The position numbers and the translations under genes are program-made. A stretch of DNA of 64,000 bases from NCBI RefSeq assembly GCF_023698535.1, contig NZ_JALJCL010000003.1:62001-126000 (forward strand). The letters are read 5' to 3'. This document shows positions 42,860 through 48,088 of the stretch, one piece after another. Every line of letters begins with the position of its first letter. Position 1 is the first letter of the stretch. Below the pieces are notes generated by a model that was not told the DNA's origin, searched no databases, and was given only the letters and a program-made list of their open reading frames with translations. This stretch comes from Halorientalis regularis (lineage in GTDB: Archaea; Halobacteriota; Halobacteria; Halobacteriales; Haloarculaceae).

Positions 42860-42867
42860 GTTTATGA
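42860..42867 (+). promoter_or_regulatory. TATA-like box of rfcS
   Basis: GTTTATGA, 24-31 bases before the ATG at 42891. It decides the start: an in-frame ATG at 42864 lies inside this box and so is unlikely to be used. Confidence 0.5.
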
Positions 42868-42890
42868 CGAGCCCACTCGTTGCCCGGAGT

Positions 42891-43868
42891 ATGAGCGAGG
42901 CCGACACCGAGTCGCGGGCCGGGCGGGACGAGATCTGGATCGAGAAGTACCGCCCGCAGACGCTCGACGAGATCGTCGGACAGGAGACCATCGTCGAACG
43001 CCTCCAGAGCTACGTCGCCAGGGACGACCTGCCCCACCTCATGTTCTCGGGGGAGGCCGGAATCGGGAAGAGCACCGCGGCACTCGCCATCGCCCGCGAA
43101 CTGTACGGCGAGGACTGGCAGGAACACTTCCTCGAACTCAACGCCTCCGACCAGCGCGGGATCGACGTGGTCCGTGAACGGATCAAGAACTTCGCCCGCT
43201 CCTCGTTCGGCGGCGCGAAATATCGGATTATATTCCTCGACGAGGCAGACGCTCTCACGAGCGACGCCCAGTCGGCACTCCGCCGGACGATGGAGGAGTT
43301 CTCGAACAACGTTCGCTTCATCCTCTCCTGTAACTACTCCAGTCAGATCATCGACCCGATCCAGTCCCGGTGTGCCGTCTTCCGGTTCAACCCGCTCTCG
43401 GACGAGGCCGTCGAGGAGCAGATCCGAATCATCGCCGAAGAGGAGGACATCGAGGTGGCCGACGACGGGGTCGACGCGCTGATCTACGCCGCCGACGGCG
43501 ACATGCGCCGGGCGATCAACGGGCTCCAGGCCGCCGCGGTCACCGGCGACGTGGTCGACGAAGAAGCCGTCTACGCCATCACCTCGACCGCGCGTCCGGA
43601 GGAGATTCACGAGATGGTCACGCAGGCGCTCGACGGCGACTTCCTGGCGGCGCGGTCGACGCTCGACGACCTCCTCACCAATGAGGGCATCGCCGGTGGC
43701 GACGTGATCGACCAACTCCACCGCTCGGTCTGGGAGTTCGACTTGGACGACGAGGCCGCCGTCACCCTGCTGGACCGCATCGGTGAGGCCGACTACCGGA
43801 TCACCGAGGGGGCCAACGAGCGCATCCAGCTGGAGGCGCTGCTCGCCTCGCTGGCGCTGGACGACTGA
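42891..43868 (+). CDS. rfcS: Replication factor C small subunit
   Basis: 325 aa AAA+ clamp loader subunit that opens PCNA and places it on primed DNA. Motifs: [20 protein letters not shown], Walker [21 protein letters not shown], Walker [21 protein letters not shown], the arginine finger in [19 protein letters not shown] (SRC box), and a collar domain to the end. Its partner PCNA is encoded at 16339 and PriL at 14489. The leaderless start at 42891 fits the upstream box. Confidence 0.96.
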
Positions 43869-43948: not shown

Positions 43949-44599
43949 TCAGTCGGCGTCCGCAGGTGGGAACCAGGCCAGCACGAGGAGCGGGACGCCG
44001 ATCTTCAGCGCCGCGTCGAGGGCGACCCGTGCCGGCAACAGCGGCAGGGTCGGGGCGAGCGCGAAGCCCGGCGCTCCGAGCACCCAGACCACCGGGTAGA
44101 GCAGGAACAGGGCGACGACGACGTTTCGGACGCGCCCGAACGCGGGCGCGGCGGCGCTGTCCCGAGCGGCTCGCGAGAGGGGCCCGAACAGGATCCACAG
44201 GAGTGCACAGAACGCGCCGACGGCGACGGCGAGCCACGCGAGTTTCGTCGTCCCCGTGGTCAGTGTCGCGACCAGCGTCGCGGCCATGCTGTACCCGCCG
44301 AGCGCCATCCCCGTCGCCGTCGTCGTGCGGTCGGCGTCGCCGAGCAGGGCGAGGACGAACACGAGAAGCGGGATGGTGAGGACGCCGTCGGCGAAGCGGC
44401 CCCAGTGGACCACGCGGTCACCGGCGTCGAGGGCCCACCCGGTCGCCATAGCGAGGTACCAGGTCCCGATGGAGACCGGGAGGAACGGCAGGACGGCGGC
44501 GACCGTCCGGGCACGACCTTCGCGGCCGCGGGCGCGCCAGGCGACCAGTGCTGCCCCACCACCGAACCCTGCGGCGACAGTCGCGAGCGTCGGGTTCAT
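43949..44599 (-). CDS. Divergent microbial rhodopsin
   Basis: 216 aa with seven predicted helices that align with bacteriorhodopsin (BR). Helix C reads VVHWGRFADGVLTIPLLVFV (BR Arg82, Asp85, Thr89 conserved as Arg68, Asp71, Thr75). Helix F reads VRNVVVALFLLYPVVWVLG (Tyr185 and Trp189 kept as Tyr168 and Trp172). Helix G reads RVALDAALKIGVPLLVLAWF (Asp212 and the retinal Lys216 kept as Asp195 and Lys199). Changes: Asp96 is Val82, Trp86 is Gly72, Trp182 is Phe165, and Glu194/Glu204 are Pro177/Leu187. It should bind retinal but lacks the donor and release groups of a proton pump. The ATG overlaps the tspO stop (TGATG), so the genes are coupled. Confidence 0.85.
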   Translation of the reverse strand: MNPTLATVAAGFGGGAALVAWRARGREGRARTVAAVLPFLPVSIGTWYLAMATGWALDAGDRVVHWGRFADGVLTIPLLVFVLALLGDADRTTTATGMALGGYSMAATLVATLTTGTTKLAWLAVAVGAFCALLWILFGPLSRAARDSAAAPAFGRVRNVVVALFLLYPVVWVLGAPGFALAPTLPLLPARVALDAALKIGVPLLVLAWFPPADAD

Positions 44600-45111
44600 C
44601 AGTTCAACCGCCAGAGTTCGTAGTTCAATAGTGCGGCGAAACTCACCCACAGCAGATAGGGCACCAGCAACAGCGCCGCCCGGCGGTCCACCCGGTCGAA
44701 GGCCAGCACGGTGGCGACGATGGTGAGCCAGAGGACGGCGATGACGACCAGCCCGAGCAGTGGCGAACGCAGGCCGAAGAACGCGCCGGACCACGCGACG
44801 TTGAACGCGAACTGGCCGGCGAACAGCGCCAGGGCGATCCTGACGGTCCGGTCGTCGAGGCCAGCACGCCAGACGAGCCACGCCGCGACGCCCATCAGGG
44901 CAAAGAGGGTGATCCAGACCGGGCCGAACACCCAGCCCGGCGGAGTGAACGCCGGTTTCGTCAGCGTGGGGTACCACGTCGTGACGCCGGACAGCGAGAG
45001 GAGGTTGCCGAGGCCGCCGAGCAGTTCGCTCGCGAGGACGACGAGGACGAGCGACGCGGCCGGGCGACGCTGCGGGAACCGTGCTGTCGTGTCGACTGTG
45101 ATGTCGGCCAT
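44599..45111 (-). CDS. tspO: TspO/MBR tryptophan-rich sensory protein
   Basis: 170 aa with five predicted membrane helices. Family signatures are [20 protein letters not shown] near 45-65, then [33 protein letters not shown], and the closing [20 protein letters not shown]. TspO binds porphyrins; in Rhodobacter it tunes photopigment genes to oxygen and light. An N-terminal polar stretch of about 15 residues precedes helix 1. It is the first gene of a two-gene unit with the rhodopsin (one-base overlap of stop and start). A T-rich CCTTTTTTCC box at about 45135-45144 (minus strand) lies at promoter distance. It is divergent from alaS. Confidence 0.93.
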
Positions 45112-45225
45112 ACCGAACCCAGACTGGGGAGGGAAAAAAGGACCGCGACGACTCCCGGCGATCGGGACCGGGCGCGAACCCGAAACGTCCAGACGGCGGC
45201 GAATCTCGCCGCCTGTTCGGAACTG

Positions 45226-45259: not shown

Positions 45260-48088
45260 ATGAGTGAGCTCGAAGCGGAGTACAAACTCCAGTACTTCGA
45301 AGACGAGGGGTTTCACCGGCTGGAGTGTTCGGCCTGTGGGGACCACTTCTGGACGCTCGACGGGAGTCGGGATACCTGTGGCGAGCCCCCGTGTGCGGAG
45401 TACAGTTTCATCGACAATCCGGGGTTCGACGACGAGCTGTCGCTGTCGGAGATGCGCGAGACGTTTCTCTCCTTTTTCGAGGACCACGACCACGAGCGGG
45501 TCGATCCCTACCCCGTCGCCGCGAACCGCTGGCGTGACGACGTGCTCCTGACCCAGGCGTCGATCTACGACTTTCAGCCCCACGTCACCTCGGGGCAGTC
45601 GCCGCCGCCGGCCAACCCCCTCGTCGTCTCGCAACCGTGCATCCGGATGCAGGACATCGACAACGTGGGCAAGACCGGCCGCCACACCATGGCCTTCGAG
45701 ATGGGCGGCCACCACGCGTTCAACGCCGCCGAGGACGCCGAGTACGCCTACGAGGGCGAGGTCTACTGGAAAGAGGAGTGTGTCGAGTACTGTGTCGAGT
45801 TCTTCGAGTCGCTGGGCGCGGACATGGGCGAGCTGACGTTCATCGAGGACCCGTGGGTCGGCGGAGGCAACGCCGGCCCGGCCTTCGAGGTCATCTACCG
45901 CGGGCTGGAACTCGCCACGCTCGTGTTCATGTGTTTCGAGCAGGACCCCGACGGCGAGTACGAACTCAAGGACGGGAACACGTACTCCCGGATGGATCGC
46001 CGGGTCATCGACACTGGCTACGGGATCGAGCGCTGGACGTGGATGAGCCAGGGCACGCCAACTGTGTACGAGGCGATCTACCCCGACATGATCGACTTCC
46101 TGAAGGACAACGCCGGGGTCGATCTGACGAGCGAGGAGGCGGCCATCGTCCACGACGCCGCGCGGCTCTCCGGGAGTCTCGACATCGACGACGTCGACGA
46201 CGTCGAGGCCGCACGCGCCGACATCGCGGCCGAACTCGGGGTCGACGTCGACCGGTTGCGCGACCTCGTGGAGCCCCTCGAAGACATCTACGCCATCTCG
46301 GATCACGCCCGGACCCTGGCGTACATGCTGGGCGACGGCATCGTCCCGAGCAACGTCGGGACGGGCTATCTCGCGCGGATGGTCCTCCGGCGGACCAAGC
46401 GCCTCTGTGACAACGTCGGCGTGGACGCCCCGCTGGACGAACTCGTCGACATGCAGGCCGAGCGGCTGGGCTACCGCAACCGCGACACGATCCGGGACAT
46501 CGTCCGCACCGAGGTCGAGAAGTACCGCGAGACGCTCGACCGGGGCGGCCGGAAGGTCCGCCAGCTGGCCGAGGAGTACGCCGCCTCGGGCGACCCCATC
46601 CCGACCGAGGAGCTGATCGAGTTGTACGACAGCCACGGCATCCAGCCCGACATGGTCGAGGAGATCGCCGCCGAGCGGGACGTAGCCGTCGCGGTCCCGG
46701 ACGACTTCTACTCGCTGGTCGCCGACCGCCACGACGCCGAGGAGGCGGCCGCCGAGGCAGAGGAGTCGAGCCACGGCGAGCGACTGTCGGACCTGCCCGA
46801 GACCGACCGCCTCTACTACGAGGACCAGGAGCGCATGGAGTTCGAGGCGATGGTGCTGGACGTGTTCGAGCGCGAGGACGGCGACTACGACGTGGTGCTG
46901 GACCAGACGATGTTCTACCCCGAAGGCGGGGGCCAGCCCGCCGACCACGGGACGATCACGACCGACGACGTGACCGCCGAGGTCGAGGACGTGCAGATCG
47001 TCGACGGCGTCGTCCTCCATCGGGTCGACGAGGACCCGGGCAAAGGCGAGTTCGTCCGCGGGGGGATCGACGCCGACCGGCGACGTCGACTCATGCGCCA
47101 CCACACCGCGACCCACATCGTCGGCCACGCCGCCCGGGAAGTGCTGGGCGACCACATCCGGCAGGCCGGTGCGCAGAAACACACCGACAGCGCCCGGCTG
47201 GACGTGCGCCACTACGAGCCGATCACGCGCGAACAGGTCAAACAGATCGAACGCCTCGCCAACGAGGTCGTGATGGACAACACGTCGGTCACCCAGGAGT
47301 GGCCAGACCGCCACGAGGCCGAAGCCGAGCACGGGTTCGACCTCTACCAGGGCGGGATTCCAGCCGGCGAGCAGATCCGGCTGATCCACGTCGACGAGGA
47401 CGTCCAGGCCTGCGGTGGGACACACGTCGCCCGCACCGGCGACGTGGGCGCGATCAAGCTCCTGAACACAGAGCGTATCCAGGACGGTGTGGAGCGGCTC
47501 ACGTTCGCCGCTGGCGACGCGGCCATCGAGGCGACCCAGGCGACCGAGGACGCCCTCTACGCGGCCGCGGACACCCTCGACGTGAGCCCGCAGGACGTGC
47601 CCGAGACCGCCGAACGGTTCTTTAGCGAGTGGAAAGAACGGGGCAAGACCATCGAACAGCTCAAAGAGGAACTCGCGGAGGTCCGGGCGGCCGGCGACGA
47701 CGGCGAGGAAGTCGACGTGGGCGGAACGCCCGCGGTGATCCAGCGGCTCGACGCCGACATGGACGAACTCCGCGCGACGGCCAACGCCCTCGTCGAGGAC
47801 GGAAAGATCGCCGTCATCGGGAGCGCGCCGGACGGCGTCCCCGCGAGCGACGCGAGCGAGGGCTCGGCGGACGAGGAAAGCGAGTCCGGCGGTGCGCAGT
47901 TCGTCGTCGCCGTCCCCGACGACGCCGGAATCGACGCCGGCGAGGTCGTCGGCGAACTCGCGAGCAAGGTCGGCGGTGGCGGCGGCGGCCCACCGGACTT
48001 CGCCCAGGGTGGCGGCCCCGACGGCGAGGCTCTCGACGACGCGCTGGACGACGCGCCGGACGTGCTCGAACAGGTCCTGAGGGCCTGA
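45260..48088 (+). CDS. alaS: Alanyl-tRNA synthetase
   Basis: 942 aa archaeal-type AlaRS that charges tRNA-Ala. The N-terminal part carries a Cys-rich zinc ribbon ([20 protein letters not shown]) specific to archaeal forms. The class II core follows ([40 protein letters not shown]). The editing domain has [19 protein letters not shown] and [20 protein letters not shown], which clears Ser- and Gly-tRNA. The C-terminal dimerisation region ends with a Gly-rich [18 protein letters not shown] segment, typical of AlaRS. Insertions are acidic, as expected for a halophile. Confidence 0.97.

Follow-up and report, generated by a model that had tools for sequence, protein, structure and literature searches.

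Trp86 belongs to a set of highly conserved residues between which the retinal of microbial rhodopsins is sandwiched (PMC10510653; residue positions are given throughout in bacteriorhodopsin, BR, numbering). In Gloeobacter rhodopsin, the equivalent of W86L bleached within 10 flashes, and the equivalents of W182L and W182F lowered the quantum yield (PMC10510653). Remodelled opsins with an altered pocket are known from haloarchaea as opsin-related proteins (ORPs), which lose the retinal lysine and often adjoin chemotaxis transducers (PMC4915679). A rhodopsin may also be associated with a non-transducer protein: heliorhodopsin is encoded beside glutamine synthetase and has been shown to bind it (PMC9529153). 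In bacteria, TspO has been tied to light and pigment control (PMC4237140, PMC9861118).

The window, that is the whole 64,000-nucleotide stretch of DNA analysed here from a Halorientalis genome of 4.03 Mb, resembles the heliorhodopsin case in that a rhodopsin gene lies beside a non-transducer gene, here tspO (Table 1). A sequence-only reading had taken the two overlapping genes for a single light- or pigment-sensing pair. The best reading of the rhodopsin is that it belongs to an undescribed haloarchaeal type-1 subfamily, which we designate "ADG" after the Ala-Asp-Gly at BR positions 84-86. This clade comprises sequences from four Halorientalis species (the window genome, H. pallida, H. marina and the metagenome-assembled genome LUM.68) and, in a second haloarchaeal family (f4), from three genomes. 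A literature search, for which subscription journals were mostly outside reach, returned no description of the clade or of a tspO-rhodopsin pairing.

The tspO-rhodopsin locus

Both genes are what the sequence-only reading took them for. The tspO product scores 167 bits against the Pfam profile TspO_MBR (PF03073; curated cut-off 24), and this score constitutes its likeness to Rhodobacter sphaeroides TspO and the TspO/MBR family; it differs from the R. sphaeroides protein in being archaeal and a putative TspO by profile. The claim of a divergent microbial rhodopsin is borne out by a score of 78.6 bits against Bac_rhodopsin (PF01036; curated cut-off 24.6), and by the retinal lysine and both counterions, which are kept.

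Table 1. Features of the tspO-rhodopsin locus (window coordinates)
Feature	Position	Strand	Remarks
rfcS (replication factor C small subunit)	42864..43868	+	Convergent neighbour; marks one side of the conserved slot
Divergent type-1 rhodopsin gene	43949..44599	-	216 aa, ATG at 44599
Rhodopsin codons 195-199, D-A-A-L-K	44003..44017	-	D212 and retinal lysine K216 kept; A215 to Leu
Rhodopsin codons 165-172, F-L-L-Y-P-V-V-W	44084..44107	-	Y185, P186, W189 kept; W182 to Phe in Halorientalis
Rhodopsin codons 122-123	44231..44236	-	W137 kept; W138 to Leu
Rhodopsin codons 68-72, R-F-A-D-G	44384..44398	-	R82, D85 kept; Trp86 to Gly
TGATG stop/start overlap of tspO and rhodopsin	44597..44601	-	1-base overlap (shared A); tspO stop TGA 44601-44599, rhodopsin ATG 44599-44597
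tspO (TspO/MBR family)	44599..45111	-	170 aa; sole tspO of the genome
T-rich TATA-like element	45134..45139	-	23-28 bases upstream of the tspO ATG; read by eye
alaS (alanyl-tRNA synthetase)	45260..48088	+	Divergent neighbour; other side of the slot

The TGATG overlap, also pointed out by the sequence-only reading, is present and is found in identical form in H. pallida, while the H. marina genes overlap by 4 bases (ATGA). In LUM.68 the TGATG is still present despite a dead tspO. A crude gene call of the window found no such overlap in 26 codirectional pairs; the call missed both tspO and the rhodopsin and so offers no usable base rate. Judged from its sequence, the TATA-like element is a possible promoter of the pair. 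The two genes would be co-transcribed from this element where tspO is intact, and the overlap would couple translation of the rhodopsin to that of TspO, a coupling that would set their co-expression.

In two Halorientalis (G081, locus L046; G076, loci L139 and L141) and in f4 genomes (L232, L233), an inserted reading frame interrupts the neighbouring rfcS at residue 131/132. The insert looks like an intein, being Hint-like and ending in HN before a threonine, and occupies the same site in both families.

Sequence and predicted structure of the rhodopsin

The nearest solved chain to the window rhodopsin is deltarhodopsin (PDB 4fbz, 97.8 bits), ahead of bacteriorhodopsin. An AlphaFold2 model, built on aligned orthologues together with further haloarchaeal rhodopsins, exhibits the seven-helix BR fold with its BC-loop hairpin (mean pLDDT 95, pTM 0.90), and Foldseek superposes it on BR and sensory rhodopsin II with TM scores of 0.87-0.90. 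Profile match, predicted fold and Schiff-base lysine together qualify the protein as a putative type-1 microbial rhodopsin. This helix G lysine, Lys199 in the window protein, is invariant in the aligned clade members.

The four Halorientalis proteins have kept Y57, R82, D85, P91, W137, Y185, P186, W189, D212 and K216, and exhibit the changes W86G, T90I, D96V/L, D115G, W138L, S141A, W182F, E194P, E204L and A215L, so that the BR release group E194/E204 has become Pro and Leu. Across the whole clade, f4 members included, R82, D85, Y185, P186, W189, D212 and K216 are kept, W86G, T90I, G122L and W138L are found, and the proton donor D96 is lost (Val or Leu). The Leu at position 122, read from a pairwise alignment for the window protein, is invariant in the clade alignment. 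Position 182 differs between the families, being Phe in Halorientalis and Trp in the f4 members. Trp86 is present in all other lysine-bearing rhodopsins of the compared sets: the sole exception outside the clade in our residue table is a lysine-less opsin homologue with Tyr at 86, and the true rhodopsins outside the clade in the later locus sets all carry Trp86.

The source genome contains seven further rhodopsin-family genes, eight in all. One of these (L009, G000:C45:122514-123140) is an opsin homologue in which His stands in place of the retinal lysine (SHVA) and Tyr occupies position 86; it resembles the lysine-less ORPs (PMC4915679). Two others (L007, G000:C44:126-752; L006, G000:C2:103395-103934) are sensory-like rhodopsins whose branches are very long and whose D96 position is occupied by Tyr; L007 also has Tyr at the W189 position. 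For retinal supply the genome has three Brp/Blh (BCD) retinal-forming enzyme genes (G000:C42, C43 and C2), where most Halorientalis have one. A Brp/Blh gene was found in seven of the eight genomes of the genus; the eighth (G080) gave no match to a rhodopsin.

The clade fits none of the classes compared here. Deltarhodopsin and bacteriorhodopsin (4fbz, 1c3w) are closest in sequence, and share with the ADG proteins the fold, the BC hairpin, R82, D85, Y185, P186, W189, D212 and K216. In contrast, D96, E194, E204, W86, W138, T90, D115 and G122 are changed in the ADG clade (W182 also, in its Halorientalis members only), which forms a separate clade. Thus R82, D85 and D212 of a BR-type proton pump are present, but D96, the E194/E204 pair and the Trp86/Trp182 sandwich are absent, position 86 being Gly throughout the clade, and these residues speak against such a pump.

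Sensory rhodopsin II (5jjn, 1h68) gives the best structural overlap with the model (TM 0.90) and likewise misses the D96 carboxylate, but keeps W86 and W182. Its transducer contact Tyr199 corresponds to Ala193 of the window protein (ungapped offset from D195/K199, anchored on D201/K205 of sensory rhodopsin II). No Htr transducer was recognised among the genes of the alaS-rfcS slot, which were inspected without an MCP/HAMP profile, and a distant transducer is possible. On the Tyr199 position, and as far as neighbouring transducers were recognised, the protein is not a canonical sensory rhodopsin. Xenorhodopsins (Alt-rhodopsin) are ruled out by the invariant R82. The ORPs are ruled out by the invariant lysine, and differ further in genomic setting, the ADG genes sitting in the alaS-rfcS slot. 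Heliorhodopsins form another family, with Ser at the D212 position (and in AbHeR Tyr at the W86 and Phe at the W182 position); the aligned clade members exhibit DxxxK in helix G, not SxxxK.

Among the four Halorientalis genes dN/dS is 0.29-0.44, and therefore the rhodopsin is under purifying selection; comparisons involving LUM.68, where tspO is dead, give 0.29-0.32. These values bear on the possibility of a decaying or weak proton pump, i.e. a BR relative losing its function where other rhodopsins exist and kept by a small benefit. The loss of D96, E194, E204, W86 and W138 agrees with such a history, as do the wide loss of the gene across the order, the half-deleted copy in the f4 genome G361 and the two other BR-type rhodopsins of the source genome. 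However, the core changes are common to two families, dN/dS is about 0.3, and R82, D85, D212 and K216 do not vary in full-length members. Simple decay is disfavoured because a broken lysine or counterion would be expected in some full-length copy, and we hold this explanation to be rather doubtful.

The pocket changes also admit an opsin fold turned into a receptor or carrier of a non-retinal ligand, which would occupy the room left by Trp86 and Trp138. The changes W86G, W138L, T90I and G122L and the loss of D115 appear coordinated, and the ORPs provide a haloarchaeal precedent for the re-use of opsins without retinal (PMC4915679). Yet the ORPs lose the lysine, whereas the full-length ADG members keep it invariant together with both counterions, and this explanation appears very improbable.

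Distribution and phylogeny of the ADG clade

The search covered 146 genomes from the family and 392 from the order; matches above 250 bits with the single protein or above 400 bits with the profile were counted as strong. Strong matches were confined to Halorientalis, the others being ordinary bacteriorhodopsin-type proteins. The three further members, from genus g101 of family f4, score 148-178 bits with the clade profile; they have W86G, T90I and W138L in common with the Halorientalis proteins and retain Trp182. Only Trp86-bearing rhodopsins were seen in a further family (f5) checked for clade members. In a tree of haloarchaeal rhodopsins the six full-length ADG sequences (four from Halorientalis, two from f4) make up one side of a branch with support 100/99, and the four Halorientalis sequences group with support 99/96. 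The ADG branch is long, and the placement of the clade among the rhodopsin classes is therefore unsure.

Searches of IMG/VR contigs and of plasmids returned no relative of the rhodopsin, and a mobile or viral origin was rejected on this ground. Between the window and the f4 genomes the rhodopsin is about 50-55% identical, and alaS and rfcS are 73-76% and 67-72% identical, respectively. Because the rhodopsin identity lies below that of both flanking genes, vertical descent is favoured over a recent transfer between the two families.

Separate retention and loss of tspO and the rhodopsin

The ADG rhodopsin lies between alaS and rfcS in all genomes that carry it, and this shared synteny suggests that it has occupied the slot since before the two haloarchaeal families split. 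The accompanying tspO does not follow it faithfully. Of the 392 genomes of the order, 293 have a TspO match, mostly without an adjoining rhodopsin, and tspO alone fills the alaS-rfcS slot in four rhodopsin-less Halorientalis and in other genera, the stop codons of tspO and rfcS almost touching in some of these genomes. One genome (G079) has 440 bases between tspO and rfcS (L043, 1939-2378), in which six-frame translation revealed no rhodopsin remnant; this insert holds a short reading frame on the minus strand that is not related to rhodopsin. The Halorientalis genome G076 has neither tspO nor rhodopsin left.

Conversely, the rhodopsin of LUM.68 is intact while the only tspO match of that genome is badly degraded, carrying two in-frame stops and lacking 36 codons through a deletion. 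No tspO was found in the f4 genomes G445, G446 and G447, assemblies of 70-80% completeness, for which genome-wide absence is not certain. In two of the three, G446 and G447, the rhodopsin is the sole occupant of the slot, starting roughly 60-80 bases from alaS, and there is no room for tspO.

A further f4 genome (G361, genus g91; L203 1953-2291, G361:C2) carries an intact tspO immediately followed by a 113-codon rhodopsin remnant, which scores 72 bits against the f4 ADG proteins versus 54 bits against deltarhodopsin. Helix A of this remnant is fused in frame to helices F-G, helices B-E being deleted, with no stop; from this reading frame, a shortened protein may still be made.

When the rhodopsin profile was run over 155 tspO loci, it detected nothing beyond the copies in Halorientalis and the remnant in G361. 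The expectation that the adjacency would recur is thus upheld for H. pallida and H. marina, and the G361 remnant extends it to f4; adjacency to an intact rhodopsin is limited to Halorientalis among the 155 loci inspected. In a tree of alaS and rfcS the rhodopsin-bearing Halorientalis do not group together: H. marina branches at the base, and the remaining three are interspersed with rhodopsin-less species. Judged from gene order and identities, the simplest history would be an ancestral order alaS-tspO-rhodopsin-rfcS that predated the split of the two families, with one gene or the other then lost independently many times. A transfer that brought the rhodopsin into this very slot would be a less simple account, and the identities do not point to it.

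The idea of one light- or pigment-sensing pair, in which TspO would handle tetrapyrroles or retinoids for the rhodopsin, has to be weighed against this record. An overlap is kept in kind in three species, the gene order predates the genus and existed in the second family too, and bacterial TspO is connected with light and pigment control (PMC4237140, PMC9861118); this much speaks for the sequence-only proposal. The joint function is not supported, since every combination of presence and absence is seen: both genes are intact in the window, H. pallida and H. marina, and neither is left in G076; the rhodopsin persists with a dead tspO in LUM.68 or with none found in three f4 genomes; and tspO stands with no rhodopsin, or a decayed one, in four Halorientalis, in G361 and in most haloarchaea. 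We consider a single sensing pair distinctly improbable. As each gene survives without the other in some species, the two are probably neighbours rather than one machine.

Proposed function

The reading to which we give about an even chance is that the ADG rhodopsin belongs to an undescribed subfamily and acts as a retinal photoreceptor that is slow and does not pump. Its co-transcription with TspO would reflect a long-standing synteny, and it would not depend on TspO. The protein would still bind retinal covalently, presumably retinal that the cell's own Brp/Blh enzymes produce. Judging by the mutants of Gloeobacter rhodopsin (PMC10510653), its isomerisation yield may be low and its photocycle slow and easily bleached, which would make it an inefficient pump and most likely a photoreceptor. 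The term "photoreceptor" is suggested mainly by the loss of pump residues, no transducer gene being recognised next to the rhodopsin. Pumping rhodopsins lacking D96 exist. TspO is unlikely to be essential, because the assemblies show LUM.68 and the f4 genomes keeping the rhodopsin without an intact tspO; it could modulate the rhodopsin without being an obligatory partner.

The clade might instead represent a functional class of its own, in which the pocket, free of Trp86 and Trp138, would yield a light sensor of an uncommon kind, slow or bistable, or would accommodate an added ligand. Co-expression with TspO would then allow light to be read jointly with tetrapyrrole or oxygen status where both genes are present. 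We think this unlikely.

The rhodopsin is more unusual than the sequence-only reading could see, while the idea of a sensing pair is weakened by the repeated separation of the genes. The main interest of the locus is a rhodopsin subfamily with glycine where tryptophan is otherwise found: seven natural genomes from two families combine Gly86 with the retained lysine and counterions, and purifying selection was measured in the four Halorientalis. The Gly86 clade offers a ready natural experiment on the role of the retinal-packing tryptophans, and is a candidate for new photochemistry. Genomes in which either gene survives singly provide a clean comparison on whether TspO serves archaeal light sensing.
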